Source: Natrinema saccharevitans | GTDB taxonomy: Archaea > Halobacteriota > Halobacteria > Halobacteriales > Natrialbaceae | Direction of reading: 5' to 3' | DNA length: 64,000 nucleotides | Assembly: GCF_001953745.1 (NCBI RefSeq) | Contig: NZ_LWLN01000003.1 | Coordinates: 1 to 64,000, forward strand | Shown: in pieces, positions 789-46,943 of the stretch | How positions within the stretch are numbered: the stretch's first letter is position 1 | Layout: each line of letters begins with the position of its first letter | Notes under the pieces: generated by a model | Told to the model about the DNA's origin: nothing | Databases searched by the model: none | What the model saw: only the letters and a program-made list of their open reading frames with translations | Translations under genes and position numbers: made by a program

Positions 789-790
789 TG

Positions 791-5145: not shown

Positions 5146-5177
5146 TAATCGATATTTCAATTACGATGACTAATACG

Positions 5178-7015: not shown

Positions 7016-10000
7016 ATGTTCAACACCAACCCCGACCCCGACGAGCAACGGCTGTCCCGTCCCCAACTGTACGCGATGATCGCCGCCCTCGCGATCGCGG
7101 CTGCACTCGCGTTCGCCGCGACGGCACTCATTGGCGGCCCGCTGGCCGGACTGGCGATCGCGGTGGTACTGGCTGGACTGCTCGTCCGCCGACACGGACG
7201 GGCCATGTGGCAGGCGCGCCCTCGAGTGACGGACCTATCTACGACATCTACCGGTGGTCAACAGACGGTCGCTATATTTTTCGTCTTGGTTTTGGTCGTA
7301 AGTCTGCCAGCGATGTCTCTCGCTGGCGGGTTTGAGACTGCAACTGCAACCTCAACTACAACGATCCAATCTAGCGACAATGAGACGGTTAAATCGCCAA
7401 CTCTCAGGTGGGGCTTCGAAGGGGATGCAATTGACGATGAACAGGGCGTCCCGTTTAACCCGTCAAACTCTGAGTACATCTCGTCAAATATCTCGCCTAC
7501 TGCGATTTTCCTCGGATCAGCACAGTCTAACGGTGTAACAAACTCCGGTACATTCGATGACCGTGCTGGAACTCTTTCCTTTTGGTTCCGAACAACCAGC
7601 AACGGGAAAATAGTTGATGCAACTGACTCGAATGGGTATGGATATGAGTTAACAATCGAGTCGAATACCGAATTCCACGTTAAGCGGACGGATTCAAGTG
7701 GCACTTCTGACTTTTGGACGGGAGATACTGGTGACCTAACAACAGGCGAGTGGCACCACGCTGTTGTTGCACTAAACACGGACGGGAATGATGCCGCAGC
7801 CGTCTATATTGACGGTGTACAAGAAGCGTCGACTGGGGGTGGTTCAAATGATTATTCGTACAACCGAGAGATTGAACTCACACCTTCGACGTCTGCTGAC
7901 ATTGATGAATTCCGCCTCTATGATGAGACACTTAGCGGTAGTCAGGCAGATACACTCTACACCGATCCAACGATCGGATATAAAAAGGAGCAAATTGCTG
8001 GGCAAGTAACGACCTGCCCCGTCGATAACCCGACCTGCGAGAACCCGTCGCCAACTCCAAACGGGACGATCGTCGAAGCCGTCGGTGTTCGCGAATCGAA
8101 CCTCGATCCCGACCAGGGCCAGACCCTCAAGGAACGGGCCGAGGAGATCCGATCGGAAGTCGAGTCCATCGACTACGATTCATTCAATTACGACCCGGAT
8201 CTCGATGTCGAGTCGACGATCTCGGACGGGAAGGTACCCGTCGTCAACACGGAAGACGACTGGGCTGGGAGTGCAGGGACGCTCCGCTATACGGACAATC
8301 CGCATCTGGGGACGCCGCGGTTGCAAGCGCCGGCCGACGAGAGGTTCTACATCCATTTGCGGGAACCGAGTGGCAACCGCATTCAGGACAACGCTGACGA
8401 GGACCTGGCCGGCGTCACGACCTCAGGCACGATCGTCATCGAACAACTGAGCTACGACAGCGATGTCGTCGACCGGCAAACCGTCGAGACAAGCGAACAA
8501 CTCTGCCTTGGCGTCAGCGTCGGGAAGAAATGTCACGAGGCCGCAGGCGTTAGTCTCTCGCCGGGCTTCTACCGCATCTACCCAGAAGGCCAGCCGGCGA
8601 ACGGCTACCCGATTTCAGTTGGTGACCCCCAACAACAGATCCAAACGATCACTAGCGACCTCGAGGACCGCGCCGGACAACTCACGCAGCGCGGCGAACG
8701 AATCGTCGAGCTCGCAACGCAGGAGAAAATCGTCCGTAAAACCACTTCGACCTACTCCAAGAACGGGACCGCCGGGAAGTTCAACCTCAGTGTTCCGAAA
8801 GACGTGAACACGCTGCAGGTCCAGGCCTACACCCCGGCAGCGGAGGACATGAACATCACCGATGTCGAAAACGCCTCGTTCGAGGACCTGCAGCAAATCG
8901 CGAACCTCGAGACCTACAACGAGTCGTTCTACATCACGCCCGCGCCCGAGAGCGTGGACGTACCCGCCAACGAGACGTCGATCCGCGCTGTCGAAGTCAA
9001 CTCGATCCCGTTCCAAGGCATCGACAAATCGCTGAACAAGTCCGAGTGGCTTCGCAACCTCCTCGAGAACGAGACGTACGCGGATATCGCTTCGGACTAC
9101 CTCGAGCCGCCCAGCGAGATGAACAGCACGGAGATCGAGGATCTGCACTCCGAACTCTCGGATCTTGCAGACGAAAACGAAAACCTCCGCGAGCGGTTGA
9201 CTGACCGGGAGGATATCAACGTCACCCTCGATCCCGACCAGAACACGGACAAACTCAAAGCCGAAATCGAGGCGCTGCGACAGGAGATTACACAGATTGA
9301 GGGCGGTCTCAACACGGGTGATCCCGAGACCGACATTGGCGATGGCACCGTCGACGCGACGATTCCCTTCGACGGTGACCTCGCACCCGACGGCGCGTCG
9401 GTCGTCGCGAACAACGTCCAGACCGGCGAGACGACTACTGTCTCCGAGGAATACTGGTCGGTCAACAAGCGGACGGGACGCTCGGACCAACTCGTTATCG
9501 AGGACTTCCCGATCGACGCTGACACCGCCCAGATCGCCTTCGGAATCACCGCCTCGAGCGAGGACGGCCAGAACATCGCCGACACGCAGGTTCCGATTAC
9601 AAACCCGGCCTTTAGCGGCAACGCGCTTGCGCTGCAGGCGATCGACGTGACGACGGTGATGCCCGGTCCGAGCGAGTCGGTGACGGTCGAACCGACCGTC
9701 GGGAGTGACAGCGTCGGCATCGAGTCGGTCAACGCGACCGTTCGGGGCCCGGACGGCGAGCGACCGACGACCAACCCCGCCGCCGACGAAGTCCGCTTCG
9801 AGACCAACGGCGCGGGTAGCTACCAGATCCAACTGACGATTACGGATGCGAACGGCCAGCAGTGGAGTGAAACCGTCAGCATCCAAGCCATCGAGGAGAC
9901 GGTCTCGCAGGACCCCAGCATCCGCGCTATTGACGGCTTTACCGGCCCGCTCGCGCTGGCCGGCGACGGTCTCGAGGGCGGCAGCGTCGACACCTCCGGC

Positions 10001-10582
10001 TCGGAGCTCGAAGTCGCGGCGATCTCGCCGCGAGACAACATCCCCTCGAGCCTGCACGTCTACGCGGAGGGAATCAGCAACAATCATCAGGACATCACGG
10101 TCAACCTGCTCAAAGAGACCGGCGAGGGCGAGCCCGAACAGGCCCGGCGGAACGCCAAGGTGTTCGTCCACGTGACCGAGTTGCCCAAGGATACGGTCGC
10201 GTACCGCGAGGGCAACCAACCCCTCGGGATCGGTTCGGACACCGCCTACGGCGGTGCACATCCCTCGGACCGTGGTGACGCCCACGTGATCAAAACCCAC
10301 ACCAGCGACGACGGATCGGTCACGATCGAGGTTCACAAGGATCCCGGGTTCTTCACGTCGGCGTTCTACGACGTCCAGACGACCGTTCCGATCCTCCTCC
10401 CGCGGCCGTCGGCGTTGAGTCCGCTGGCGACCGTCGGGTCGGCGGTCCTGCCGATTCTCGAGGTCGCGGTTGATCTGGTTGCGACGCTGGCGTCGCTGGT
10501 CGCCGAGCCCGCGACCACGGTCACCATCGACGCGCCGGTCGATGGACTGGCCGCCGCCCATGGAGGTACTATCTCAGCATGA
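7016..10582 (+). CDS. Giant membrane-anchored surface protein with LamG module
   Basis: A 1188-residue protein. Residues about 18-60 hold two hydrophobic segments and residues about 85-105 a third, after which the chain is probably extracellular. Residues about 125-320 look like a LamG/concanavalin-A-like sandwich (W-G-F-E-G-D, GTLSFWFRTTSNGK, GEWHHAVVALN, VYIDGVQ, IDEFRLYDETLS), a carbohydrate- or protein-binding fold. A coiled coil with many glutamates follows at about 700-770, then Ig-like repeats and a hydrophobic C-terminal region (about 1130-1165). Many N-x-S/T sites suggest glycosylation. The LamG part (about 7240-8010) is visibly richer in AT than the rest. The last codons overlap the protease gene start (ATGA). 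Probable role: adhesin, spike or scaffold. Confidence 0.75.
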   Translation: MFNTNPDPDEQRLSRPQLYAMIAALAIAAALAFAATALIGGPLAGLAIAVVLAGLLVRRHGRAMWQARPRVTDLSTTSTGGQQTVAIFFVLVLVVSLPAMSLAGGFETATATSTTTIQSSDNETVKSPTLRWGFEGDAIDDEQGVPFNPSNSEYISSNISPTAIFLGSAQSNGVTNSGTFDDRAGTLSFWFRTTSNGKIVDATDSNGYGYELTIESNTEFHVKRTDSSGTSDFWTGDTGDLTTGEWHHAVVALNTDGNDAAAVYIDGVQEASTGGGSNDYSYNREIELTPSTSADIDEFRLYDETLSGSQADTLYTDPTIGYKKEQIAGQVTTCPVDNPTCENPSPTPNGTIVEAVGVRESNLDPDQGQTLKERAEEIRSEVESIDYDSFNYDPDLDVESTISDGKVPVVNTEDDWAGSAGTLRYTDNPHLGTPRLQAPADERFYIHLREPSGNRIQDNADEDLAGVTTSGTIVIEQLSYDSDVVDRQTVETSEQLCLGVSVGKKCHEAAGVSLSPGFYRIYPEGQPANGYPISVGDPQQQIQTITSDLEDRAGQLTQRGERIVELATQEKIVRKTTSTYSKNGTAGKFNLSVPKDVNTLQVQAYTPAAEDMNITDVENASFEDLQQIANLETYNESFYITPAPESVDVPANETSIRAVEVNSIPFQGIDKSLNKSEWLRNLLENETYADIASDYLEPPSEMNSTEIEDLHSELSDLADENENLRERLTDREDINVTLDPDQNTDKLKAEIEALRQEITQIEGGLNTGDPETDIGDGTVDATIPFDGDLAPDGASVVANNVQTGETTTVSEEYWSVNKRTGRSDQLVIEDFPIDADTAQIAFGITASSEDGQNIADTQVPITNPAFSGNALALQAIDVTTVMPGPSESVTVEPTVGSDSVGIESVNATVRGPDGERPTTNPAADEVRFETNGAGSYQIQLTITDANGQQWSETVSIQAIEETVSQDPSIRAIDGFTGPLALAGDGLEGGSVDTSGSELEVAAISPRDNIPSSLHVYAEGISNNHQDITVNLLKETGEGEPEQARRNAKVFVHVTELPKDTVAYREGNQPLGIGSDTAYGGAHPSDRGDAHVIKTHTSDDGSVTIEVHKDPGFFTSAFYDVQTTVPILLPRPSALSPLATVGSAVLPILEVAVDLVATLASLVAEPATTVTIDAPVDGLAAAHGGTISA

Positions 10583-12246
10583 CACGAACACGCACACGTA
10601 CGATCCTGACGCTAACGCTGGTCGTTTTGCTCGCCAACCCGCTGCTGGCCGCCCCGGCGGCTGCCCAGTCGCTCTCGCTCGGCGGCTCGAGCGGCCCACT
10701 CTCACCGGCGGCCGCCGACGCAGTCGACTGGTTCGGCTACTTGCCCCACGAGGATGCCGTCCGGTACGGCGACGGCGGCGACAAGGTCGGCGTCTTCGTC
10801 GAGACTGGTAGCGCCGAGGATCTCGAGTCACTCCAGAACTGGGCCAACGGGACGCCGGCAACGGTCCTCGAGACCGACGGCGGCCGGAACACGGCTCTGC
10901 TGGCGGTCCAACCGAAGCAGATCAAGTACTCGCTGACCGAACCCGAGAAGCTCCCGATGTGGGGCGACAGCGGGCAACCGCTGGCCGCCTTGAACTACGT
11001 CGAGCGCGTCGATCTCGAACTTGAGGTCAGCAACGTCGAGCCGGTCCGCAACCTCGAGTCGGCCGATAGCGTCGATGTCGAGCCGCCCGGCGCGACGGCG
11101 GCGACGGTCTTCAACGACGGCACGTTCGGCGAGGGAATGGCCTACGACGGCGACAGTCCGGAGACGTTCATCCGCGACGTGCGCCCCTACGTCGGCGCGG
11201 ACGCGGTCGGCCAGAATGGCTCCGGTGTCAACGTGGCCGTGATCGACAGCGGCGTCAACATCGGTGACGGCCGGGTGTTCGGCAACGGGTCGATCGGCTC
11301 TGAGGTTCGCGTCGGCGACGGCTACGACTTCGTCGAGGACGAGCCGATCACCGCCGCCAACGGCTACGAGAACGTGTCCGATCCGAACGGGCACGGCTCG
11401 TGGGTCGGATCGGCCGCGGTCGGGGTTGACGGGATGGCTCCCGGCGCGACGCTCATGCCGTACCGTGCGCTCGACTCGGAGGGCTCCGGATCGACCTCGG
11501 ACATCGTCAGGTCCGTCCGCCGGGCTGATCGGCAGGGTGCGGACATCCTGGTGATGAGCCTCGGGTCGCCAGTCTGGAACGACCAGCTCGCCACCGAACT
11601 CGAGCACGCCCTCTCGGAGGAGGGGAACGTGACCGCGGCGTTCGTCGCTGCGGGCAACAGCTACCAGACCGGTGTCGCCCGGTGGACGGCGTCGCCGAGC
11701 GACATCCCGGAAGTGATCGGCGTCCAATCGACCGACGCCGCGCCGCCTGCAAACGCGACCAAGAGCTACTACGGCAACGTCGGGCCAGACACGGGCGGCG
11801 ACCTCAGTACCGGCGAATCGCGTGGTGTGACGCCGGATACCGCGGCTCCGGGCCAGAACCTGACCGCGCCAACCTTCACCGACTCCGGTACCTACCGGAA
11901 CACGACGCTGTCGGGCACGTCGATGGCCGCGCCGGTCGCCGGCGGCGTCGGGGCACTCGCCCTCGAGGCCAACCCCGCGCTCGAGGGCGACGCCGAGACG
12001 TTCCACGACCGAGTTATCGAGAGCGGCGCTGCGACGCCGAACCTCGGGACGACTGAGTCCGAGGGCGGCATGATCGACGCCGATCGACTAGTCGCGGGCA
12101 ACACGACCGAGCCCGCACCTGAGCGGGATCTGAACGCGGCCGCGTCCGGGCGAGACACGGCGAACAACGCACTCTCGGCCCAGCCCGGCTTCCTCAAGGC
12201 GAGTAGCCGGTTCTTCGGGGACGCTGCTGAGGCAGTCGGCGTCTAA
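10579..12246 (+). CDS. Secreted subtilisin-like serine protease (S8 family)
   Basis: A 555-residue protein with an N-terminal signal peptide (about residues 1-29, ending A-A-P-A-A-A-Q). The S8 triad is complete: D223 in V-A-V-I-D-S-G, H272 in N-G-H-G-S-W-V-G and S448 in S-G-T-S-M-A-A-P. The oxyanion asparagine is N360 in A-A-G-N-S. The stretch between signal and catalytic domain (about 30-205) is long enough to be a propeptide. The start overlaps the surface-protein stop by four bases, which suggests matched synthesis and that the protease matures or remodels cluster proteins or cleaves the target cell's S-layer. The Asp-rich surface fits salt-in conditions. Confidence 0.92.
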   Translation: MTRTRTRTILTLTLVVLLANPLLAAPAAAQSLSLGGSSGPLSPAAADAVDWFGYLPHEDAVRYGDGGDKVGVFVETGSAEDLESLQNWANGTPATVLETDGGRNTALLAVQPKQIKYSLTEPEKLPMWGDSGQPLAALNYVERVDLELEVSNVEPVRNLESADSVDVEPPGATAATVFNDGTFGEGMAYDGDSPETFIRDVRPYVGADAVGQNGSGVNVAVIDSGVNIGDGRVFGNGSIGSEVRVGDGYDFVEDEPITAANGYENVSDPNGHGSWVGSAAVGVDGMAPGATLMPYRALDSEGSGSTSDIVRSVRRADRQGADILVMSLGSPVWNDQLATELEHALSEEGNVTAAFVAAGNSYQTGVARWTASPSDIPEVIGVQSTDAAPPANATKSYYGNVGPDTGGDLSTGESRGVTPDTAAPGQNLTAPTFTDSGTYRNTTLSGTSMAAPVAGGVGALALEANPALEGDAETFHDRVIESGAATPNLGTTESEGGMIDADRLVAGNTTEPAPERDLNAAASGRDTANNALSAQPGFLKASSRFFGDAAEAVGV

Positions 12247-12261
12247 GGAGGGTTCTCACTC

Positions 12262-13059
12262 ATGTCCACAGAGACAGACGGCGACGAGCCCGTGGTCGGT
12301 CGTCGGGAGGTGCTTCGCGGCGGGGCCGCGGCCGTGACGAGCATCGTCGGAACGCTCTCGCTGACCGGCGTCGCCGCGGCGAGTCACGCCGACTCAAAAC
12401 CCAACTCGGTGACACTGACCTACGATGAGGGCGTCCTCCGACAGTACCGCCCGATGCTGGATCTGCAGGACGTGACCTATTCGAACCGCCCAACACTACG
12501 GGGCTGGGTCGCGAGTTCGTCCGACGAGGACACGACCGTCCTCGTCTACGCTTGCGAGTACGCCAAGCAGGAGTCGTCGTGGTACGGCTTCACGTTTGAC
12601 CTGACCTCGCATTCGGGCGATCACGAGTGGATCTACGTCGTCGTCGACGACGCCTCGGGCGAGATCGTCGAGACCGACTACACGGCCTACCACTGGTTGC
12701 GCGGGCGCGAAACGGCCCCGACGATCTACGAGGACAGCGACGGACCGCATCCGGTCTACCGCGTCGACGGGAACTTTCACCACTACTATCCCATCGGCGC
12801 GACCGAGGGCGAACTTCTCGAGGTCGAGTCGCTTGGCGATCCTGAGACCCAGAGCGGCGGCGTGTACTCGTGGCTCGACAACGGGATGGAGGAAGACCTC
12901 CGTCGCGGCGCGGTCCATAATCCATGGCTCATGGTCGGCTCGTCGGGCTACTCCGACTGGTGGACCCGACAGGGCCTCTCGTGGAAGAACCAGTTCCTGA
13001 CTACGATGTACGCGGCCGGTGTCGCCGGTGCGGAGACGGCCGATCGAGGGGACATCTGA
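12262..13059 (+). CDS. Tat-exported protein of unknown function
   Basis: A 265-residue protein with a Tat signal: R14-R15 in G-R-R-E-V-L-R followed by a hydrophobic stretch and A-A-A-S-H-A near residue 38. The mature part has several tryptophans and tyrosines (SSWYGFTFDL, HEWIYVVVDD, YHWLRGRE) and looks like a beta-rich extracellular domain. The C-terminus carries WWTRQGLSWKNQFLTTMYAAG. No catalytic signature recognised. A strong Shine-Dalgarno (AAGGAGGG) precedes the ATG. It sits between the protease and a second secreted protein. Confidence 0.72.
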   Translation: MSTETDGDEPVVGRREVLRGGAAAVTSIVGTLSLTGVAAASHADSKPNSVTLTYDEGVLRQYRPMLDLQDVTYSNRPTLRGWVASSSDEDTTVLVYACEYAKQESSWYGFTFDLTSHSGDHEWIYVVVDDASGEIVETDYTAYHWLRGRETAPTIYEDSDGPHPVYRVDGNFHHYYPIGATEGELLEVESLGDPETQSGGVYSWLDNGMEEDLRRGAVHNPWLMVGSSGYSDWWTRQGLSWKNQFLTTMYAAGVAGAETADRGDI

Positions 13060-13061
13060 CC

Positions 13062-13343
13062 ATGACTCGAACGACGATTCGGTGGGCCTCCGGAGGGATT
13101 CCACCGCCGCCGACTGTCCCACCCCCGACCTTGCCTCCAGTCCCGCCCGACGACCCCTACCCGGGACACCGCGAGCCTCGCTCGCTAACCGACCCATCCT
13201 CAACACGACACTACAACAATGAGACCCATCTCAACGCGGCTTTTCGCGTGCCTGATCGCCCTGCTCGTCGTTACCAGCGGTTCGATCGCGCTGGCCGGCA
13301 CTGCGGTCGCCGACCCGACAAGCACCGGCGATCTGGCAACTGA
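13062..13343 (+). CDS. Possible small proline-rich protein, doubtful
   Basis: A 93-residue frame starting two bases after the preceding stop, with a run of prolines (GIPPPPTVPPPTLPPVPP). Its last 125 bases overlap the secreted protein gene starting at 13219 in another frame, which is unusual for this cluster. The first 50 codons may be real and the overlap fortuitous, or the segment may simply be the leader of the next gene. Confidence 0.3.
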   Translation: MTRTTIRWASGGIPPPPTVPPPTLPPVPPDDPYPGHREPRSLTDPSSTRHYNNETHLNAAFRVPDRPARRYQRFDRAGRHCGRRPDKHRRSGN

Positions 13344-14358
13344 CGGCACCGACACGATTACCGACTACAACGCGTCCGCGGACCGTAACCACACGGTCAC
13401 CTACGACACGGATCTGAGTGCCGACACGAAAGACGACTTCGACGAGTTGTCGCTCGAGATTCGCAACGACGGCCACACCTACGCCAGCTACTCCTCGGCT
13501 GACGCCGAGGTCGTCTCCGGCAGCAGTGACGGCACGACGACCCTCGAGGTCCAGTTCACGGTCAACCACGCGGACCTCGAGAAGCTCCCCGGTGACGCCA
13601 ATCAGGTCACGAACACGACCTACAACTTCACCGAGCGTGAGACCGGCGTCGACGAGGGCAACGGCACCTCCTACGACACGACCGTCGGCTACGAGTTCGC
13701 CGACGATCACGCCGTCCGGACGATTCACTCCGACGACTCCTCGCTCGTGGACGACCTCGAGGTCGCAGACAGCAGCGACGATGACGGCTGGTTCGGCGGC
13801 TTCTCGGTGTCGTCGCTGAACCCGTTCTCGAGTAGTGCTGCGTCCTCGGCGACGATCGAGGACGACGTGGGGATCAACGGCTCCCAGACCGACGTCCACG
13901 TCTACAGCGAATCCGACAACGTGACCTCAGCCTTCGACGATCAGCTCGAGGACGCTGACGACAGCGAGCGCGTCGGGATGCTCATGACCTCGAACGTTGA
14001 CGACGGCATCGTCTACGTCTTCGCCAACGAGCCCGGCGAGAAGATCGGCGGCGAGAACGTCTCCGACTCCGACAGCTACATCGTCGCGAACGAGGGCGGC
14101 GAGTACATGGTCAACATGGGCGACGACTACGAGGGCCAGGACACGGCCTCCCTCGAACTGGTCGCTGGACAGGACGTGAGCGCCGACGCACTCCAGAGTG
14201 ATCTGGGGTACGGGATGCTCCAGGCCTACGGGCTTGATTTCGGCTCGCTCTCGAGCAGCCTCGGCGACCTGATCCCGCTGTCGCTCGGCGGCGGTGCGGC
14301 TGGCGCGTCGCTGGCCGGGGTCGCGTTCGTCGCCTCGCGGAAGCAGTTCGGCGCATAG
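13219..14358 (+). CDS. Secreted protein with C-terminal membrane anchor
   Basis: A 379-residue protein with a Sec signal peptide (about residues 1-31, A-G-T-A-V-A-D). The ectodomain is very acidic, rich in Ser and Asp, with several N-x-T/S sites. A glycine-rich hydrophobic segment near the end (about residues 350-371, LGGGAAGASLAGVAFVA) followed by R-K anchors it in the membrane. A linker around 190-210 (GWFGGFSVSSLNPF) is aromatic. This topology, signal plus stalk plus terminal anchor, is that of a haloarchaeal surface or spike protein. No homologue named. Confidence 0.68.
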   Translation: MRPISTRLFACLIALLVVTSGSIALAGTAVADPTSTGDLATDGTDTITDYNASADRNHTVTYDTDLSADTKDDFDELSLEIRNDGHTYASYSSADAEVVSGSSDGTTTLEVQFTVNHADLEKLPGDANQVTNTTYNFTERETGVDEGNGTSYDTTVGYEFADDHAVRTIHSDDSSLVDDLEVADSSDDDGWFGGFSVSSLNPFSSSAASSATIEDDVGINGSQTDVHVYSESDNVTSAFDDQLEDADDSERVGMLMTSNVDDGIVYVFANEPGEKIGGENVSDSDSYIVANEGGEYMVNMGDDYEGQDTASLELVAGQDVSADALQSDLGYGMLQAYGLDFGSLSSSLGDLIPLSLGGGAAGASLAGVAFVASRKQFGA

Positions 14359-14397
14359 AGACGACACCTATCCAGGATATCGACTTTTTGCAGACGC

Positions 14398-14440
14398 GCT
14401 CGCGCTGGTGTGTTACGACGGTTCGAATCCGTCGGCGAGC
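14398..14440 (+). other. tRNA-like stem: T-arm plus acceptor remnant
   Basis: In the short gap after the secreted protein, GACGG-TTCGAAT-CCGTC (14417-14433) is a perfect tRNA T-arm with a canonical TTCGAAT loop. It is followed at once by GGCGAGC (14434-14440), six bases of which pair with GCTCGC at 14398-14403. There is no room for D and anticodon arms, so this is not a functional tRNA. It may be a remnant att site from integration at a tRNA 3' end, or a mini-tRNA-like RNA element. Confidence 0.45.
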
Positions 14441-14444
14441 CCTT

Positions 14445-14699
14445 ATGGCACGCGCACAGCCAAAACCCGATAGCTCCGACGCCGCTGATCCCGAGCGCCC
14501 GAACGCGGCCACGCGGGCGCTCGCTAGTTCTCCATCGGACTGCTGTGACGAACCGACGAGACTCGAGACTCTCGATAAGGCCAAACAGCAGTTCGATATC
14601 GAACTCCGAAAGCGCCTCGAGGCAACCGGCTACGACGGCGACGAGATCGTAGCGGTCTGCCCCGACTGCAAGAACGCGGTGGCGCTCATCTGCAGGTGA
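14445..14699 (+). CDS. Small zinc-knuckle protein
   Basis: An 84-residue protein with a disordered N-terminus, a C-C pair near residue 34 and C-P-D-C at about residues 71-74 close to the C-terminus, plus a final cysteine. The cysteines may bind one zinc. The ATG at 14445 is preferred over an in-frame ATG upstream because the latter overlaps the tRNA-like element. The next gene's Shine-Dalgarno (GGTGAT) lies in its last codons. Confidence 0.55.
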   Translation: MARAQPKPDSSDAADPERPNAATRALASSPSDCCDEPTRLETLDKAKQQFDIELRKRLEATGYDGDEIVAVCPDCKNAVALICR

Positions 14700-14704
14700 T
14701 CTCG

Positions 14705-15843: not shown

Positions 15844-15845
15844 CC

Positions 15846-16037: not shown

Positions 16038-16048
16038 CGGAGATTCTC

Positions 16049-16380: not shown

Positions 16381-16390
16381 AGGTGAGACG

Positions 16391-17962: not shown

Positions 17963-17983
17963 CGATTTTCGTTTGGTCGCCGA

Positions 17984-17990
17984 TTATAAA
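17984..17990 (+). promoter_or_regulatory. TATA box for leaderless gene at 18009
   Basis: TTATAAA at 17984-17990 stands about 22 bases before the ATG at 18009, matching a leaderless archaeal promoter. It is the only clear internal promoter seen in the 6.3-26.8 kb cluster, and splits it into a surface-protein half and a membrane/ATPase half. Confidence 0.6.
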
Positions 17991-18008
17991 TCCAGACACA
18001 CCTATGAC

Positions 18009-18260
18009 ATGACGAGACATCAATCACTAACGACCGGCAGAGTCACCACGAACAACGAGGCGATCCAACTCTATCTCGGCGTCCGATTCTCCCGTGCGCC
18101 ACGCAACCCGCTCCGGGGCGCGACCGAGTACGGCGCGCTGTGTGATTCGGATGTCGTCGTCGTGTTTCCGGCTGACCAACCCCCGACGTTTCCGTTCGAG
18201 GTGACGCTTCCCGACCCGATCGACGAACACGACCTGCAACACGCACTTACGAATCCATGA
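18009..18260 (+). CDS. Small soluble protein heading the ATPase half
   Basis: An 83-residue protein starting MTRHQSLTTGRVTTNNEAIQ. The middle (GALCDSDVVVVFPADQPPTF) looks like a small alpha/beta fold. A downstream start was chosen over an upstream in-frame one because of the TATA box spacing. The ATG of the next gene overlaps its stop. Function unknown. Confidence 0.5.
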   Translation: MTRHQSLTTGRVTTNNEAIQLYLGVRFSRAPRNPLRGATEYGALCDSDVVVVFPADQPPTFPFEVTLPDPIDEHDLQHALTNP

Positions 18261-18919
18261 GTACCCACCCAGACCGACCCACGAGCGACAGCTCACCACA
18301 ATCCGACCAGCAGCGATCCGAACTCTCGGAACTCCGGCGATCCCTCTCGATCAAACAGGACTACGTCCGCGACGAGGACCCCGAGCTATTCGAGGAGATC
18401 GGCACGTTCCTGCAGGTCTCCGCGACGCTCCACGATGGGAGCGTCGCCTCGAGAGTCCAATCGAAACTCCGAGAGCTGAAACGCGGCAACAAGATGCGGG
18501 CCCATCGGAACGTCGACGACCCGGAGGACGCCTTCGCGGACGACTGCGACGGTTGTGAGCATTACGGCGTCAACTGCCCGATGCTCAATCGATACTCGGT
18601 AACGAAGACGATCTCCCGAGTTATCGAGGAAGCTGAGAGCGACGACGAGGTGATAGAGAAGCTGACCGACATCGCCATCGAGAACAACTGCCACGTCGTC
18701 CTCGATGAACTCGACGACTGTCAGGACTCCTACGCCGAACTGCTCGAGCGTGGCTACGAACTCAAAACGCGAGCGGTCGAAGCGATCTCGGGGTCCGCCG
18801 ACGGGAGCGGAAGCGAGACGGGCGTGACGGCGACGTTCGATGAACCGTCGCCCGAAGACGAACGCCGCGTCGAGGAGACGATCGAACACGTCATGAGCGA
18901 CGAGGAGGACGACCAATGA
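18257..18919 (+). CDS. Soluble protein with cysteine cluster
   Basis: A 220-residue very acidic protein. After a disordered N-terminus comes a helical part (SELSELRRSLSIKQDYV, LQVSATLHDGSVASRVQSK). A cysteine group at about residues 95-107 (CDGCEHYGVNCPM) could bind zinc or an iron-sulfur cluster. The C-terminal half is charged and helical. It is coupled by ATGA to the membrane protein that follows. Confidence 0.58.
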   Translation: MSTHPDRPTSDSSPQSDQQRSELSELRRSLSIKQDYVRDEDPELFEEIGTFLQVSATLHDGSVASRVQSKLRELKRGNKMRAHRNVDDPEDAFADDCDGCEHYGVNCPMLNRYSVTKTISRVIEEAESDDEVIEKLTDIAIENNCHVVLDELDDCQDSYAELLERGYELKTRAVEAISGSADGSGSETGVTATFDEPSPEDERRVEETIEHVMSDEEDDQ

Positions 18920-19923
18920 ACTTCGACCTCGTTTCGGCCGCGATCGGCGCGGTGGTGTTCCTGCTCACACTGTTCGTCGTCTACAAACTCGCCATGGCAG
19001 TGACCTCGCTGGGTGACGACGAACACGACACCGAGAGTACACAGGATCGGCTTACGATGGAGGACAGGGCACGCCATCGGCGGGTCGGCTTCCGGCGTCG
19101 CGTGGGCCGCCAGACGATGACGATGAAGGTATTCCTCGGGGCCGTTGGCATCCTGCTCGTCTACTTCGCGATCGCCATCTATCAGGTTGCCCAAACTGGC
19201 AGTCCCGCTGAGGCGGCCTACGCTGGCTACGTCCAGTACGGCGTGGCCTTCTTGATCCTCGTCGGCGCTGGCGTCGTTTTCAAGGCGAAACAGGATTCGA
19301 AAGCGGGCGAAGTCCAGATTATGAAAGAGCAGACGGGGGGTAACAGCCGGCGAACGGTCAAGTTCGACCTCCGACTCGCCCACGACACTGATAACGACAC
19401 GACGCTGGTCCCGCAACTCAAGTCGAATCCGTTCCTCGGGCTGTTCTGGCGGCCGTTGCTGGTGGCCGACGACCCGGAACTCCGGGACTCCGATCATCGC
19501 CTCCCCGACGACCTCGTGTTTTGGGAGGTGCCGGACGACGAGTCGGCCGTCTGGGGTGATCGCGGCGAAGACGCAACTGTCCGGGCAAAGCGAGTCCGAA
19601 CGGTCCATAACCCCGACCGCGCGGCTGACTACGAAATCGTCCCGTCGGAGCGCAAATCTCAATCGGAGATCAACGACCTCGAGAATGATATCAACGAACT
19701 CGAGGCGGAACTTCGTGCTGAGCGGATCCAGAACGGTATCCTCTCGGAGAAGATCACCGATATCGAGAACATCCTGACGAACGAGGAGTACGACAGTCTC
19801 CACCGGGTCAAGCAGGCTCAAGACGCATTAGAGGACGAGAAAGACGACCACCAGCAACAGTACGACGAGCAACAGCCCGCCAGCGGGAACGGCCGCGGGC
19901 AGCCCGCTCCGCAGCACAACTGA
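18916..19923 (+). CDS. Three-pass membrane protein with C-terminal coiled coil
   Basis: A 335-residue protein with helices at about residues 6-28, 68-90 and 100-122. A cytoplasmic region of some 100 residues and then a coiled coil (about 240-310: DLENDINELEAELRAERIQN) and a glutamine-rich tail follow. The topology resembles a scaffold that ties a membrane complex to cytoplasmic partners. Next come two larger membrane proteins and the ATPase, so I infer it is part of an ATP-driven membrane machine. Confidence 0.65.
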   Translation: MNFDLVSAAIGAVVFLLTLFVVYKLAMAVTSLGDDEHDTESTQDRLTMEDRARHRRVGFRRRVGRQTMTMKVFLGAVGILLVYFAIAIYQVAQTGSPAEAAYAGYVQYGVAFLILVGAGVVFKAKQDSKAGEVQIMKEQTGGNSRRTVKFDLRLAHDTDNDTTLVPQLKSNPFLGLFWRPLLVADDPELRDSDHRLPDDLVFWEVPDDESAVWGDRGEDATVRAKRVRTVHNPDRAADYEIVPSERKSQSEINDLENDINELEAELRAERIQNGILSEKITDIENILTNEEYDSLHRVKQAQDALEDEKDDHQQQYDEQQPASGNGRGQPAPQHN

Positions 19924-19938
19924 GTTCTCACCTGATCC

Positions 19939-21270
19939 ATGTTCGATAATCCATCCAATCGAGGAGCCACTCGGCTCGCGACCTTGTGTATCGCCCTGGT
20001 CCTCGCCGGCGCTGTCTTCGGCGCGATCACGCCGGCAGCAGCCGCGACCGGGACTCAAGCAGACAACGCGACCAACACGTCTTCCCCGTCGACGACGCCG
20101 TCACAGGCCGATCTCGTCCGTATCACGCCGGACAATCCGGACGAGGACTACCTCTCGGTACAGACCGAAACGACCGACGAGGTCTACAACACGACGGGGC
20201 CGTACGCGACGTTCACGCTCTCGGAACCCGTCGAATCGGCCCGCGTCCAACAGTCGAAGGCTGACGCGCGGGTCCTTGGAGGCGGGCGCGTCGTCCGCAT
20301 CGCGTACGAGGACGATGCGGCCGGCAAGAACGCCTCGCTGTACACTGCCGAGTTGTTCTTCCCCGACGGCTCGCAACGCTCGATCGACCTCTACGCGACT
20401 CAGACCGGCGTATCCGTCGCGGCTGGCGATCTTGAGCAGTACGAGGGGTTCATCGACTACACACTCGAGCAGGCCGGGTCCGAGGGATACGATCAGACGC
20501 CCGAGGGCGCACGCAGCTACCTCGAGACGAAAGAGGAACGAGCCAACCTGTTCGACTCGCTGTTCACGGAACACGTCATGATGTTCATCTCGCTGCTGTT
20601 TGCAGCAGCGCGGAACTTCGTGACGTGGGTGGTCGCTGTGGCGATCATCGCCGGGGTCGCGTTCTACTTCGAACGCAAGCACGGCTGGATCCTCCGACTC
20701 CAGCAGAAAGCCGAGAGTCGAGGTGAACTGATCCGCGAGGCCGTCCGCCAGACGTACGAAGAACGGCGGAACACGGCCGCCAAGCACCCGCTCGAGGACG
20801 TAACAGAGATCGGTCCGAATGCGGCCCGCTACTGGCGAGAGACCGGCGTCGAGACGGTCAACGACATGGTCGAAATGACCTGCAAAGGCGTCGTCGCGCT
20901 CACTGAGGATGGGAACGTCAAGTACGACGAGAACGGCGACGTGGTCTACGCCCATCACGGGGTTGACGACCTCATGGACGTTGACCCGCTGACCCTCGAG
21001 CAACTCCGATCGGAGACGTGGCTCGCGCCGGTGATCTACGAGGGCCGACTCACCCCGACGACTGCCCTCTCGAATATCGAATCGGCCCTGATGGTCGCCG
21101 AGAAGGACTACAACCGCGGGAACGAGGTTCGTGACGCCCGGCGGAAAGTCTCCGAGTTAAACAAACGACTTGCCGGCCGGCGTGACTTCGAGAACCGGGA
21201 GACGTCGTCGAACGCACCGCGTCACGACCAACAGACCGACTTCACCGGTACCGCTGCAGGAGGTGACTGA
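19939..21270 (+). CDS. Signal-peptide protein with ectodomain, membrane span and cytoplasmic domain
   Basis: A 443-residue protein with a signal peptide at residues 1-36, an ectodomain (about 37-205) with N-x-T/S sites, a long hydrophobic segment at about 212-244 that could cross once or form a hairpin, and a basic-then-mixed cytoplasmic domain (245-443). The cytoplasmic part has helical segments (LREAVRQTYEERRNTAAKH, RKVSELNKRLAGRRDFENRE) and an HhH-like stretch (TEIGPNAARYWRETGVETVN). The last codons (GGAGGTGACTGA) supply the next gene's Shine-Dalgarno, giving the tail G-G-D. Confidence 0.65.
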   Translation: MFDNPSNRGATRLATLCIALVLAGAVFGAITPAAAATGTQADNATNTSSPSTTPSQADLVRITPDNPDEDYLSVQTETTDEVYNTTGPYATFTLSEPVESARVQQSKADARVLGGGRVVRIAYEDDAAGKNASLYTAELFFPDGSQRSIDLYATQTGVSVAAGDLEQYEGFIDYTLEQAGSEGYDQTPEGARSYLETKEERANLFDSLFTEHVMMFISLLFAAARNFVTWVVAVAIIAGVAFYFERKHGWILRLQQKAESRGELIREAVRQTYEERRNTAAKHPLEDVTEIGPNAARYWRETGVETVNDMVEMTCKGVVALTEDGNVKYDENGDVVYAHHGVDDLMDVDPLTLEQLRSETWLAPVIYEGRLTPTTALSNIESALMVAEKDYNRGNEVRDARRKVSELNKRLAGRRDFENRETSSNAPRHDQQTDFTGTAAGGD

Positions 21271-21275
21271 CTACG

Positions 21276-23393
21276 ATGTCGCTCTCACTACTTGATGAGG
21301 CCGATCCGGAAACAGAGGACTCGCCCTCGATACTGACTCGGATCTCGAACCTCATTCTTGGGGACCCGCGAAAGGCTCCACGGCGGATCCTTACGCTGCT
21401 GGTGTTCCTTTTGTTCGGGATCATCTCGCTCGGCGTCTGGTTGCTACTTAACTCGCAGATCGACACCTCCGGGTCGTCCGCCCCGATCGTCGGTCCGGCG
21501 CTGTCGATCCTGACCAGCGTTTGGACCATCCCGGTGGTGACGCTGTGGTTCACCCGTCAGTGGGTGTTGTTCAACCGCAGCCGGAAAGCGAAGAAGGCCG
21601 CAGATGTCACCGGCTGGACCGTCGAGACAATCGTCCGCCTCCGCGAAGAGATCAAAACGACCGACGGCTGTACGCGGATCATCGCTTCGACCGGCGAGTC
21701 CCAAGCCGAGATCGAGGATCGAATCGACGCCGGCCTCGACGGCGAGTACGACGACGACACCGTCGATTTCTGGGCTGAACGCGCTACTGACGACTCGAAG
21801 AAAGCTGCGGAGTCTGAGGCGGCCAGCGAAGACGCGGCGGCGAGTATCTGGGACGAACTCGAAGACGATGCCGACGACGAGCCCGACCGTATCGAGGAGT
21901 TACGAGCCCGCGAACGTGACCTGACCAAGGAGTACAACCGCAAGGCCGAGCGGATCGAGGAGGTACTCGAATCGGCCCTCGAGGGCGAGATTGACCCGGT
22001 GAAGGTGCTGGAAGCGGACGACCGGGCGTCGTTCTACGAGCTGGTAGACGACGAATCTCAGGACCTCATCGACGAGGCCGACGCCCTCCTCGAGGAGTGC
22101 GACCGAATCGACCAAGAACTCGAGGAGATCCGGACGGAACTCGAGACGCTACTCGAACAGGAACTCGAGACCGCTGCGGTCGTTGACGACCTCGCGGAAG
22201 GGTTCGAAGCCGCGGCCGCCCTCGATGACGCACTCTACGAGGAAGGCTACAACCGAGCGGACTGGTTCGGCGAAAACCAGCCGACCGAAGACCGATCGCT
22301 CCGCTCCCGAATCCGCGGGATTCCGGGCTGGCTCATGTCGGCCCCCAGTCGGCTGTACGGCGCGGTTTCGTCGGACAGTGGCTCGAGTGCCAACGCCGAT
22401 ACCGCCCGTGATCACCAAGTCCCGTGGCGGGTTCGGTTCCTTGAGGAGGCTAAGCACCTTTGGCTCGACCTCCAGAGTGGGTTCCGAACCGGTGCTGCCG
22501 CCATCAAGTTCGGCGTCCCGGCGCTGGTTGCGTTCGTCCTGCAGTTGTTCCTCGTCGGGCTGTGGACGACGCTGCCGGTCTACGGGCTCATCCTGGCGAC
22601 GAGTACGCTCGTCGGCCTCGCGTCGTTCTGGATCGTCAAGCGCCGCCGCCAGCGCCGCCTCCGACGCTACCGGCGCAACTCGACCGAGGAGTACTGGTAC
22701 GACTGTGCTGGCCAGTTCAAAACCGTCCAGACGGCCGACGTGACGGCCTACATGGCGTTCATCGGTGGCCGCCGCTACGCCGCCTACGATCGCGAGGAGT
22801 TCACCCGGAAGACGAGCCGAGTGATGTACCAGCATATCTCGGATGAACCCATTGCGCCCTCGAACCTGCAACACTACGCGCGGTGTCTCGAGCAGATGCA
22901 GCCGAACCTCAAGGGCCACCGGGAGAACGTCCTGAAACCGGGGATCATGACTGACCTTGAGCAGACGGTCCGGGATTCGGAGGACGAACTGATCCCGAAA
23001 GCGGAACTCGCGTGGTCGGTGATCGAACAGCCGACGACCTCGCGGATCGAACGCCGACTCGGACACGACCCCGAACTCGTCGCCAGCGAGTACAAGTCCC
23101 TCGTCGACGATCTCCACGTCCTCGACGAACACGAGGTCGAGTTCTTGGACGCGAACGGAGAGACGCAGTCGATCACACTCGTCTTCCCGTCGGACAAGAA
23201 CCGGCTCCCGGATATCTCGGAACGACACTCGCAGTTTTCCGACCGCTTTACCGACAAGAAAGGCGACCCGGTCTACGAGATGCCCGCAGTCGATCCGCGG
23301 GACGGTCTTCAGGGCTTCATCCCGACACCCCGCGAGGCGGCGCTGCTCGGTGGGATGGATCCGGGAGAGGTCGCGACTGCAGGAGGTGACTGA
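21276..23393 (+). CDS. Large four-pass membrane protein with coiled-coil cytoplasmic loop
   Basis: A 705-residue protein. Two helices at about residues 40-60 and 72-93 and two at about 405-450 flank a 310-residue charged loop that is mostly coiled coil (about 195-325, many E-L-x-x-R-E repeats). A C-terminal cytoplasmic domain of 250 residues follows and includes HVLDEHEVEFLDANGETQ. No P-loop. Position and coupling (GGAGGTGACTGA tail ending G-G-D, as in the previous gene) link it to the ATPase immediately downstream. I infer a channel or anchor for that motor. Confidence 0.65.
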   Translation: MSLSLLDEADPETEDSPSILTRISNLILGDPRKAPRRILTLLVFLLFGIISLGVWLLLNSQIDTSGSSAPIVGPALSILTSVWTIPVVTLWFTRQWVLFNRSRKAKKAADVTGWTVETIVRLREEIKTTDGCTRIIASTGESQAEIEDRIDAGLDGEYDDDTVDFWAERATDDSKKAAESEAASEDAAASIWDELEDDADDEPDRIEELRARERDLTKEYNRKAERIEEVLESALEGEIDPVKVLEADDRASFYELVDDESQDLIDEADALLEECDRIDQELEEIRTELETLLEQELETAAVVDDLAEGFEAAAALDDALYEEGYNRADWFGENQPTEDRSLRSRIRGIPGWLMSAPSRLYGAVSSDSGSSANADTARDHQVPWRVRFLEEAKHLWLDLQSGFRTGAAAIKFGVPALVAFVLQLFLVGLWTTLPVYGLILATSTLVGLASFWIVKRRRQRRLRRYRRNSTEEYWYDCAGQFKTVQTADVTAYMAFIGGRRYAAYDREEFTRKTSRVMYQHISDEPIAPSNLQHYARCLEQMQPNLKGHRENVLKPGIMTDLEQTVRDSEDELIPKAELAWSVIEQPTTSRIERRLGHDPELVASEYKSLVDDLHVLDEHEVEFLDANGETQSITLVFPSDKNRLPDISERHSQFSDRFTDKKGDPVYEMPAVDPRDGLQGFIPTPREAALLGGMDPGEVATAGGD

Positions 23394-23398
23394 TTCTC

Positions 23399-25891
23399 AT
23401 GAGCCAACCACAACCAGCCGAGACTCCGGACCAGGAGACCGACGACACGAACAGCGGTACGGGCACTCAAACCGAACTCGTTCAGTATCAGGAGATCCAA
23501 GCCGAGGACGAGACCGACGTTGGGACGGCCCTCGAGAATCTCCAGCAGCAGAGCTACGAGCAAAGTGAACGCAAGTCCCAAGCCGAACACGAGGCGTTCA
23601 TCCGGAAGATCATCACTGAGGCTCGATGGTCCCTTTCGGGGAAAGGCGACTACCCCGCGGATGATCTGCTCCACGCGCTCCACTGGACGATCAAACGCGA
23701 CCCGAACCTCACGGAGATCCTGTCGCCGGCCTACGACGGTGACTACATCACCAGCACGACGAAGGCCCGCTTTTTTGATCACGACGCCGTACGGGCCGAG
23801 GGCCGGTCACCGCCAAGCCTCGAACGCGAACTCGAGGTCCTGACCGAGATCGCGAAGGAACTCAACTACCTGAACGCGCTGACCGACCCCTCGAACTACG
23901 CGCCGGTCTACCTCGAGAAACTCGACCCCGAGGAGGTCCCCCACGCGCCGGACGTCGACGAGATCGTACCGATCGGCCGCCGGCGCGTTTCGAAAGACGA
24001 CCCGGCCGAGATCAAGGACAAAGCGGTCGAGATTCCCCACGACGACTGCGACCATATCCTCGCGATCGCGAAGCCGCGCGAGGGCAAGGACTCGACGCTC
24101 ACCTCTATCGGAATGAACCTTTGGCGACAGCACGGCTACAAGTACATCTCGTTGCACGACGACGGCCGGATGGAAACGCCCATGCTGTCGATCCCCAACG
24201 ACGAGCAGGCGATCAGGGACAACCTCGAGCGATTCAACCAGCAGCCCCGAGCGATGGATACGACGGTCTACGTTCCCCGGATGGAGGGCACGCCAGAGGT
24301 GCTGCCGGCGAACTTCGAGACGTTCACCCTCGGGATCGACATGCTGACGCCGAAGGACATCCTCCGACTCGCCGGCGTCACCGACTCGGATCCGTCCCTC
24401 GAGTTACGGATCAAAGAGGCCCTCGAGATCACGCTCGATCGCTCCCGGCAGGTCGACGAACTCGTTAACCTGCTGTTCGACTTCGCGGAAGGCCTCGAGG
24501 CAACGATCGAGTGGACCGAGGTGCAGGACAAACACAAGAGCGACGGGTCGGTCGAAACGCGGGAGACGTCGTTCTCGCTGGCCGCCGACAAGGCCGTCGA
24601 GAAGGCCGCCCAGCGGCTTGCCCGTCTCGCCGGCGAGGGCTTCATCGCCTCACCCGACGCCGCGACGAACCTCGACTTTCAGGAGATGCTGGCTGACAAG
24701 GAGACGGCGGCGGTGCTGTGCTGTAACTTCATCGATGCCAGCGAGGGGTTCAAGTACACGATTATGGACCTCTGGCTCCAGAAGATCATGGCCGCTCGAG
24801 ACGAGTGGCCGCGTCTTCCGCGGGTCTGTCTCGAGGTCCGCGAATTGAAGAACGTCGCCCCCTCGCAGATCCAACACGCCCGCTACAAGGACCAGATTCG
24901 GGCGCTGCAACAGACGTTCCGGATCATCGCCACGCAGGGTGGCTCCCGGCGGGTCCTCCTGCTGGGGTCGACCCAGAAGTTCAACGACGTCCTCCGACCG
25001 GTGCGGAACAATATGGACACGAAGATCCTCCTACGGCAGGGGCAGGAACAGGTCCGCGAACTCGACAAGAAGTTCGATTTCACTCCGGACCAGTTCAGCC
25101 AACTACGGACGTTCGAGACCGGCGACGGGATGATCTACGCCGACGGGGAGCCGTTCTGGCCGATCGAGTGGCGCGGCGCGCCGTGTGGCCTCGGTCTCGG
25201 CGATCAGGTCTGGCGAGACCGCTACGGGAAGGCATGGGGCGCTCGAGTGCGAGAGACGGCTGACCCGCCGTGGTCGACGAAGAACACGCCGCCGTGGTGG
25301 GTCGACGTTCTCACCGGCGATGCACTCGCCGAGGGGAAACCCGCCGTCGGTGGGTGGTACCTGCGGCCCGAGGACTTCCCCGCGCCGGTCGCGTCGATCG
25401 ACGACCCGGAGACCGCGGCCGACGCAGTCACTGACCGGCTGGTCGAGTGGGCGCTGCAACAGCGCCGCGAGTACCCCGTCCCGTCGACGCTGACGCTCGA
25501 GCCGCTGGCCGGCGACGAACGCCAGCAGGACATCACGCTCGAGCAGATCGGTCGCGAGACCACCTACGAGGATATCGCAAAGCGCCACGACGTGCCCCGG
25601 TCGATCACGCCGTGGCTCCGGAAGGCGGCAAGCACTCGGCAGCGATATATCACCGTCTGCGAACTCGTCGACGAACACGAGTTCACGAGCTACCCCGAAC
25701 TCCACGAGGCGCTGAATATCGACGAGTGGACGCTGGGGACGTTCCGAAACCACGCGTCGGACGACGACCGGCTCGGGCCGTGTCTCGACAAGAACGACGA
25801 CCACGAGTACGTCCTGACGCCAGTCGGGAAACGCGTCCTCGAGATCGACTGGGGCGCTGTCGAGCAGGGCCTCGAGGAGGTCGATGCGTGA
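23399..25891 (+). CDS. HerA/FtsK-superfamily-like ATPase with wHTH tail
   Basis: An 830-residue soluble protein. Residues about 221-235 (AIAKPREGKDSTLTSIG) form a degenerate P-loop with G-K-D-S in place of G-K-S/T. Residues about 475-482 (RVCLEVRE) sit where the Walker B strand and acidic residues should be, and GSTQKFNDVL at about 523-532 matches the glutamine sensor of FtsK/HerA/VirD4 enzymes. The C-terminus (about 700-825) looks like two winged helices (TYEDIAKRHDVPRSITPWLR and TSYPELHEALNIDEWTLGTF). It likely pumps DNA or protein through the membrane complex encoded just upstream. The stop overlaps the MCM-like gene by one base (TGATG). Confidence 0.72.
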   Translation: MSQPQPAETPDQETDDTNSGTGTQTELVQYQEIQAEDETDVGTALENLQQQSYEQSERKSQAEHEAFIRKIITEARWSLSGKGDYPADDLLHALHWTIKRDPNLTEILSPAYDGDYITSTTKARFFDHDAVRAEGRSPPSLERELEVLTEIAKELNYLNALTDPSNYAPVYLEKLDPEEVPHAPDVDEIVPIGRRRVSKDDPAEIKDKAVEIPHDDCDHILAIAKPREGKDSTLTSIGMNLWRQHGYKYISLHDDGRMETPMLSIPNDEQAIRDNLERFNQQPRAMDTTVYVPRMEGTPEVLPANFETFTLGIDMLTPKDILRLAGVTDSDPSLELRIKEALEITLDRSRQVDELVNLLFDFAEGLEATIEWTEVQDKHKSDGSVETRETSFSLAADKAVEKAAQRLARLAGEGFIASPDAATNLDFQEMLADKETAAVLCCNFIDASEGFKYTIMDLWLQKIMAARDEWPRLPRVCLEVRELKNVAPSQIQHARYKDQIRALQQTFRIIATQGGSRRVLLLGSTQKFNDVLRPVRNNMDTKILLRQGQEQVRELDKKFDFTPDQFSQLRTFETGDGMIYADGEPFWPIEWRGAPCGLGLGDQVWRDRYGKAWGARVRETADPPWSTKNTPPWWVDVLTGDALAEGKPAVGGWYLRPEDFPAPVASIDDPETAADAVTDRLVEWALQQRREYPVPSTLTLEPLAGDERQQDITLEQIGRETTYEDIAKRHDVPRSITPWLRKAASTRQRYITVCELVDEHEFTSYPELHEALNIDEWTLGTFRNHASDDDRLGPCLDKNDDHEYVLTPVGKRVLEIDWGAVEQGLEEVDA

Positions 25892-26835
25892 TGGACGACG
25901 AATGGATCGAACTCTTTGAGGGGCCGCTTTCGGAGTACGCTGACAGCGCCTCGAGCAACGGCCGCGTCCGGATCCCGTGGACCGAACTCTCGGAGGCGCA
26001 CCCGGATTTAGCCGAATCGGTCCTCAGCGATCCGGAGACGACGTTGAAGGTCGCGAGTAATGCCCTCGGTCGGGTCGGACCCGTTCGAACCACTGTCCGG
26101 GTGTACGACCTTCCCGACCACCGGACATACCGTGTCGGCAAGTACGGCTCGTCGATGCTCGGAAACCTCATCGGTGTTCGAGGGACAGTCGTCGATGTCA
26201 ACCGGGTGAAGCCGTGCGCTCGAGAGGCCGCCTTCGAGTGTCACTTATGCGGGACGCTGACCCGGGTGCCACAGTCTGGCGGCGATCTCATTGAACCCGG
26301 CCAGTGCCAGGGCTGCGAGCAAGATGGCGGTATGCGACTCAATTTAGCCCAGTCGGAGGTCATCGACTACCAGCGAATCATTCTCGAGCGGGCGAACTCC
26401 TCGATGGACGATCCGCCGGTCGAGATCGTTCATCTGTGGAAGGACCTCTGCGAGACGCTCAGTCCTGGTGACACCGTGACGGTCGTCGGGATCTACGATA
26501 TTCTTCCCAACCAAGACAAAGCGGTTCTCGAGACCTACCTCGATGCCGTCTCGATTAACAACAGCAAGCAGCCGGCGACCGTCGACGAAATGGCCGACTG
26601 GCAGGTCAAGAAGTGGACCTTCGAGACCGCCGACGAGCTGTGTACGGCGGGCTCGGACTACGACTGCTCGAAACGCGAGATCGTCGAAACCGTCGCGGAT
26701 GAACACGGCGTTGCCGAAGGCGAGATCACCGCGGCGCTCGAGGACCTCGACGATCAAAGTGTCGTCTCCGAACGTCGTGGTGGCCGCATTCACATCACTA
26801 CATCCTCCCCTCCTACGTTCGAGCCTGCAGAGTAG
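25891..26835 (+). CDS. Stand-alone MCM N-terminal domain protein (OB fold plus zinc finger), no AAA+
   Basis: A 314-residue protein. Residues about 20-240 match the layout of the MCM helicase N-terminal region: helical bundle, then GNLIGVRGTVVDVNRVKP, a C4 zinc finger (C117, C120, C139, C142), D-Y-Q-R-I-I-L-E and DTVTVVGIY. In MCM these make the ssDNA-binding ring. The ATPase domain is absent; instead a winged-helix-like tail (KREIVETVADEHGVAEGEIT) follows. Coupled to the motor gene before it, it may load or guide ssDNA to that ATPase. True truncation of an mcm gene is unlikely because the frame ends cleanly with a wHTH. Confidence 0.75.
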   Translation: MDDEWIELFEGPLSEYADSASSNGRVRIPWTELSEAHPDLAESVLSDPETTLKVASNALGRVGPVRTTVRVYDLPDHRTYRVGKYGSSMLGNLIGVRGTVVDVNRVKPCAREAAFECHLCGTLTRVPQSGGDLIEPGQCQGCEQDGGMRLNLAQSEVIDYQRIILERANSSMDDPPVEIVHLWKDLCETLSPGDTVTVVGIYDILPNQDKAVLETYLDAVSINNSKQPATVDEMADWQVKKWTFETADELCTAGSDYDCSKREIVETVADEHGVAEGEITAALEDLDDQSVVSERRGGRIHITTSSPPTFEPAE

Positions 26836-46862: not shown

Positions 46863-46943
46863 TGTGTGACTCCGCCCGCCGCAGCGACGGTCGCGAAACC
46901 GATCGGCTGTGTCGGCAGGCAATCCGAACATTCCGCCCACCCT

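Follow-up and report, generated by a model that had tools for sequence, protein, structure and literature searches.

Results and discussion

The locus and the plasmid that carries it

A run of genes at 7016-26835 of a haloarchaeal plasmid raises the question of what kind of machine they encode, since their products include exported proteins, membrane proteins, a translocase and an MCM-like protein, a combination that had been read in an initial annotation, made from the sequence alone, either as a conjugation-like pore or as a module for vesicle or virion formation. The window, i.e. the whole stretch of DNA analysed, comprises bases 1-64000 of contig C3 in a genome of 3.98 Mb. This contig is 84,960 bases long and its final 13.5 kb duplicate its start at 99.96% identity, with an offset of ca. 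71,460 bases; because its ends repeat each other, the plasmid is a circle of ca. 71,460 bp (about 71.5 kb). An apparent second copy of ORF6 to ORF9 (contig positions 78.5-85 kb) results from the assembly overlap of the circular plasmid and does not represent a duplication. The module itself, initially described as about 20 collinear, coupled genes, was counted as 19 genes (Table 1), all of them intact, in the same orientation and mostly coupled, many neighbours overlapping by 4 bases or lying 5-15 bases apart.

Table 1. Genes of the module at 7016-26835 and of the nearby pilin pair, in window coordinates
Product	Position	Strand	Match or occurrence
Two type IV pilin genes (291-788, 791-1258), possible accessory part	291-1258	-	Pilin_N 1e-16 for 291-788
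ORF6 homologue, giant exported surface protein, 1188 aa	7016-10582	+	27% identity over 895 aa to pR1SE ORF6, 2e-70
ORF7 homologue, subtilisin-like S8 protease, signal peptide	10579-12246	+	38% identity to pR1SE ORF7, 3e-31; Peptidase_S8 8.5e-30
ORF8 homologue, Tat-exported	12262-13059	+	27% identity to pR1SE, 7e-7; twin-Arg at residue 14
ORF9 homologue, exported acidic protein	13219-14358	+	26% identity to pR1SE ORF9, 7e-4
Small Cys-rich protein, variable region	14388-14699	+	Without relatives in the loci compared
p14696, variable-region protein, 140 aa	14696-15118	+	10 type A elements, several type B loci
Tat2, second Tat-signal protein, 242 aa	15115-15843	+	pR1SE 16713-17450, 7e-5
Small basic protein, 65 aa	15840-16037	+	11 elements
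Small membrane protein, 85 aa	16123-16380	+	3 elements
ORF17 homologue, Sec-exported	16391-17356	+	34% identity to pR1SE, 1e-46
Small 2-TM protein, basic tail	17353-17655	+	pR1SE ORF 19683-19925
p17639, small 2-TM protein	17639-17962	+	pR1SE 19922-20203; 27 elements
p17973, small soluble protein	17973-18260	+	pR1SE 20352-20588; nearly all elements
ORF21 homologue, soluble, Cys-containing	18257-18919	+	27% identity to pR1SE, 2e-20
ORF22 homologue, 3 TM and cytoplasmic coiled coil	18916-19923	+	25% identity to pR1SE, 1e-13
ORF23 homologue: signal, exported domain, one TM (226-244), cytoplasmic part	19939-21270	+	33% identity to pR1SE, 2e-48
ORF24 homologue, large membrane protein, 4 TM	21276-23393	+	34% identity to pR1SE, 3e-33
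ORF25 homologue, HerA/FtsK-superfamily translocase	23399-25891	+	38% identity over 821 aa to pR1SE, 3e-180
Motorless MCM	25888-26835	+	MCM_OB (Pfam) 4e-18

An apHPV, and a larger apHPV core

Used as a tblastn query, the ATPase of the window recovered 14 plasmids of haloarchaea with high coverage, among them pR1SE (NZ_KX687704). Eleven genes of the module match this Halorubrum lacusprofundi plasmid (KX687704) directly and collinearly, namely those for ORF6, ORF7, ORF8, ORF9, the Tat protein, ORF17 and ORF21 to ORF25, with E-values ranging from 7e-4 (ORF9) to 3e-180 (ORF25), although the one-to-one matches of ORF8, ORF9 and Tat2 are weak. The likeness to pR1SE is thus closer than the distant resemblance noted initially, when no direct match was claimed, nor is the system undescribed: Lucking et al. 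named 41 pR1SE-like plasmids in 2023 as apHPVs, haloarchaeal plasmid-vesicle elements, on the criterion of at least five of six marker proteins (PMC10818511). Direct comparison with pR1SE and profile searches found all six markers (ORF6, ORF8, ORF17, ORF21, ORF23 and ORF24) in the window, and it shares with the 41 apHPVs a location on plasmids of Halobacteria and an arrangement in two clusters (PMC10818511). Further apHPV traits are the order of cluster 1, variable region and cluster 2, the S8 protease ORF7, the translocase-like ORF25 and a location on a haloarchaeal replicon, mostly a plasmid and in this case a circular one. With the six markers and the collinear match taken together, its sequence identifies the window plasmid as an apHPV, an element type already published in 2023. 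Some differences from pR1SE were found, whose ORF6 carries WD40 (PMC10818511) where that of the window has a LamG-like domain, which lacks the motorless MCM gene after ORF25, and whose accessory genes differ.

The closest second clusters are those of pHLAJ5I from Halobiforma lacisalsi AJ5 (NZ_CP019286; ORF25 77% identical) and of a plasmid of Natrinema sp. DC36, probably of the same genus as the host of the window plasmid (NZ_CP084476; ORF25 65%), both with the same MCM-like gene. Cluster 1 of pHLAJ5I is only 25-36% identical to that of the window, and represents a different surface cassette.

A search of 391 Halobacteria genomes detected an ORF25 of this kind, hereafter type A, in 27 of them, and the neighbourhoods were traced family by family with iterative profiles. 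Both clusters were found in the same order in 27 elements, pR1SE included, so that the synteny proposed initially as a check is conserved, the order not being unique nor the genes housekeeping families. To the published core (ORF6 to ORF9, ORF17, ORF21 and ORF23 to ORF25) five families can be added that occur in nearly all elements: Tat2, the 2-TM protein encoded at 17353-17655, p17639, p17973 and ORF22. The apHPV core therefore consists of 14 genes and is larger than published. The 2-TM gene, which is easily overlooked, occupies the same position in 28 type A records, including all complete type A elements, and Tat2, absent from the published core list, is encoded in every complete type A locus.

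Parts of the machine

The exported proteins of cluster 1 bear out the giant surface protein, the S8 protease and the two Tat-type signal proteins of the initial annotation. The ORF6 homologue has N-terminal TM segments, a LamG-like domain (Laminin_G_3, 3e-13) and a conserved C-terminal half ending in a hydrophobic segment, and the Asp/His/Ser catalytic motifs of the ORF7 homologue are intact near residues 221/272/446. The top NCBIfam match of this protease is a type VII secretion mycosin, far under the cut-off.

The small membrane proteins of the initial annotation were confirmed too, and cluster 2 encodes the membrane proteins ORF22, ORF23 and ORF24. The cytoplasmic part of ORF23 contains a hint of a helix-hairpin-helix-like motif (PF10391, E 0.045 for the window protein and 9e-4 for the best member). 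For ORF24, no convincing PDB match was found with an AlphaFold model of mean pLDDT 68; a role as membrane remodeller was considered on account of Vipp1/PspA-like Foldseek matches and discarded, as these were weak (E about 0.2) and came from long coiled coils in this model.

The AlphaFold model of ORF25 (mean pLDDT 77) matched HerA best among known folds (4d2i, Z 27.4, rmsd 3.6 over 323 residues), followed by VirB4 (Z 23.0), TrwB (19.1) and the STIV2 packaging ATPase B204 (16.7). As modelled, ORF25 has a HerA-like RecA-type translocase fold, in line with the HerA/FtsK-like ATPase proposed initially. It shares its fold with these four proteins but differs from them in the P-loop and at Walker B. 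Nearly all type A members have AxPRxGKDS as their Walker A motif, in which GKD is invariant, and the Walker B motif reads LExREL, with Arg-Glu replacing the usual Asp-Glu, so that the canonical pair of Walker A and Walker B motifs was not found in type A. The Ser/Thr of the P-loop normally binds magnesium, and ATPase activity is only predicted for ORF25 because an Asp stands at that position.

The last gene of the module had been interpreted as a stand-alone MCM N-terminal domain. The protein does have the N-terminal domain, OB fold and zinc ribbon, but these are followed directly by a C-terminal winged helix, which is also kept, and it is the AAA+ motor alone that is missing, as seen by alignment with full-length plasmid MCMs (the match to NF040949 covers only 36-257 of 682). 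The gene adjoins ORF25 in 15 of the 27 type A elements; in 14 of these it comes directly after the ORF25 stop, overlapping or within about 80 bases, and in the other (G120C3) it is placed after a second, partial copy of ORF25. Motorless MCMs constitute one clade (support 0.99) beside plasmid-borne full MCMs and separate from chromosomal MCMs. The 'MCM helicase' of apHPVs has been read as host-acquired (PMC10818511); being monophyletic and lacking the motor, the motorless MCM is not a host-acquired helicase, and the published reading does not fit the gene at 25888-26835. A search of six type B genomes without a type A element found no motorless MCM, only full-length ones. Since pR1SE and the type B loci lack it, this protein is not essential for the machine in general. 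It may be a DNA-recruiting packaging adaptor, or it may serve replication.

A second lineage of cluster 2

Two weak ORF25 matches led to loci in which ORF6 to ORF9 and Tat2 are followed by an unfamiliar gene set. Searched with the ATPase of this set (type B), the 391 Halobacteria genomes rendered 15, and a phylum-wide sample added none beyond Halobacteria. Cluster 1 genes are present in all 15 type B loci; ORF8 is found in 27/27 complete type A and 15/15 type B loci, profile matches to ORF9 in every complete locus of both types, and Tat2 in 14/15 type B loci. The second cluster of type B runs 17, p17639, 21, 25, (p17973), 22, 23, 24, with the 22-24 block inverted in two loci. When its eight families were compared by HHalign with eight type A families, the best match was the positional counterpart in all eight, and in seven the probability was 93-99% (ORF17 99%, p17639 93%, p17973 99%, ORF22 98%, ORF23 97%, ORF24 98%, ORF25 99%), that of ORF21 being only 14%. 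These profile matches indicate that types A and B are two deeply diverged versions of one second cluster, permuted in type B. That every part of cluster 2 is kept in a second lineage would be expected if one machine needs all of them. In type B, the P-loop of the translocase is canonical, yet Walker B has the same Arg-Glu as in type A.

Type B hosts include Salinigranum rubrum GX10 and Natrinema pallidum BOL6-1. The loci are located on circular plasmids, e.g. one of 39 kb in Salinigranum rubrum and one of 71 kb in Natrinema pallidum, but also on chromosomes. Two named type B plasmids carry a pair of genes for a CbbQ/NorQ-like AAA+ ATPase and a VWA protein between the translocase and ORF22 (L183:21890-24051 and L231:17280-19478), and in two further type B loci, G146C1 and G054C1, about 2.8 kb, a similar length, separates these genes. 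A total of 34 elements with cluster 1 only have been suggested to be inactive remnants (PMC10818511). Type B probably accounts for many of them, and its loci look complete.

Exchange of the surface cassette

Trees of the cluster 1 proteins leave the two types mixed, the number of A/B label changes being close to the shuffled expectation for ORF6, ORF7, ORF8 and Tat2, while ORF9 gave fewer changes than shuffled labels (9 vs 12.5). As these are FastTree trees of divergent proteins, pairs with shared DNA are stronger evidence. For a type A and a type B locus (G181C6 and G295C3), DNA identity is 86% along a 3.9 kb stretch of cluster 1, with no shared DNA in cluster 2, and two plasmid contigs of a single genome (G090) are 85% identical over 2.3 kb of cluster 1. 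In the type B contig of these two (G090:C24, L157/L158), the ORF24 gene is immediately followed by a C-terminal piece, 251 aa long, of a type A ORF25, which is likely the scar left when one second cluster replaced the other. In a Natrialba pair of type A, protein identity is 95-99% in cluster 2 and 40-51% in cluster 1. That surface-gene trees mostly ignore the type of the second cluster implies an exchange of the surface cassette between two alternative engines.

On balance, though with clearly less assurance than for the identity of the locus, we favour a scheme in which haloarchaeal plasmid vesicles are produced by a machine of two parts. A single surface cassette (ORF6 to ORF9 and Tat2) would pass freely between two alternative, ancient engines for envelope and packaging, of which pR1SE and the window have type A, type B being permuted and having a canonical P-loop; the supposed remnants would be a complete second lineage, and the motorless MCM present in part of type A would recruit DNA as an adaptor for packaging instead of acting as a helicase in replication.

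Proposed mechanism and alternative explanations

The reading that we prefer, to which we assign a probability of roughly 0.8, is that we are dealing with the transfer module of an apHPV, by which a plasmid of the pR1SE type exits the cell enclosed in membrane vesicles that it encodes itself. Infection by pR1SE has been reported to be borne by vesicles (PMC10384203); the pR1SE homologues of the module's proteins have been studied by vesicle proteomics, ORF25 has been predicted to act as recruiter, and transfer does not depend on contact (PMC10818511). In these papers, pR1SE is the only member of the family for which vesicles carrying the plasmid and its proteins have been demonstrated, and for the window plasmid we infer particle formation, the direction of pumping and the role of the MCM-like protein. 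The proteins of cluster 1 (ORF6 to ORF9, Tat2) would be exported and would build and mature the particle surface, for which ORF7 would supply the proteolytic processing. ORF17, the small protein encoded at 17353, p17639, ORF22, ORF23 and ORF24 could form an envelope-spanning assembly, on whose cytoplasmic face a HerA-like ring of ORF25 would pump the plasmid, as double-stranded DNA, into the vesicle as it buds, and the motorless MCM might bind plasmid DNA and pass it to the adjoining ORF25.

It could also be the case that the module forms a contact-dependent conjugation pore, in which ORF25 would act as coupling protein or VirB4, the channel would consist of the membrane proteins and ORF6 would be the adhesin, since HerA, VirB4 and TrwB have related folds that all match ORF25, and an exported surface protein plus small membrane proteins are equally compatible with a pore. 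We consider this improbable: neither PF03432 (Relaxase, the sole relaxase family tested) nor PF12696 (TraG-D_C, coupling protein) had a match in the genome, though both models cover archaea poorly; the related plasmids are all typed as non-mobilizable; and the pR1SE homologues are vesicle proteins. Of the alternatives offered initially, it is thus the vesicle or particle side that holds, with pR1SE as the right comparison. An equally small chance is given to the reading that the element has a membrane-enveloped virion that has gone unrecognised, so that 'virus' would be a better name for it than 'plasmid'. The packaging-type ATPase fold, the maturation-like protease and the particle life cycle of pR1SE (PMC10384203) speak for it, but no homologues of ORF25, of the type B ATPase or of ORF23 were detected among 50,697 phage records, nor of ORF25 in IMG/VR, and a capsid protein is not known in the family (PMC10818511); the distinction is partly terminological. 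A PHROGs search gave a significant match for the MCM alone.

Even less probable is a decayed, inactive copy kept on the plasmid, to which the strong divergence of ORF6 to ORF9 and the existence of partial elements (e.g. G090C22) would lend themselves. Against it stand the intact, coupled genes, the intact protease motifs and purifying selection in close relatives, with dN/dS values of 0.006-0.19 for cluster 2, obtained from the Natrialba pair only because synonymous sites are near saturation against the closest named plasmid.

Implications of the vesicle-transfer reading

pR1SE is the standard example of an element that stands between a plasmid and a virus. What the comparison adds is that there are two engines and a single exchangeable surface, that the core is larger than published and that the MCM has no motor. 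The parts common to two deeply diverged lineages are likely the essential ones, and the lineages also offer natural swaps. The movement of a surface cassette between engines resembles host-range exchange in viruses. If the type B loci are active, such a machine would be present in about a tenth of the sampled haloarchaeal genomes (40/391).

Other genes of the plasmid

Besides the pilin pair in Table 1, another type IV pilin gene lies at 4198-5160, also on the - strand, the pilin genes thus being divergent from the module. Of the 27 type A elements, 13 have pilin genes upstream of ORF6, at a distance of 1-6.5 kb, and in 12 of these they are on the opposite strand; outside the plasmid, the same genome has 6 in about 3.9 Mb. 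The plasmid also carries maintenance genes, among them those for a putative Cdc6/Orc1-like fragment (C3:70501-71250), a ParA-type ATPase (window 45897-46955), a tyrosine integrase (34779-35897) and a C5 cytosine methylase (59338-61317), and a gene at 2369-2911 encodes a protein of HNH homing-endonuclease-associated repeats (PF18780, 3e-63).
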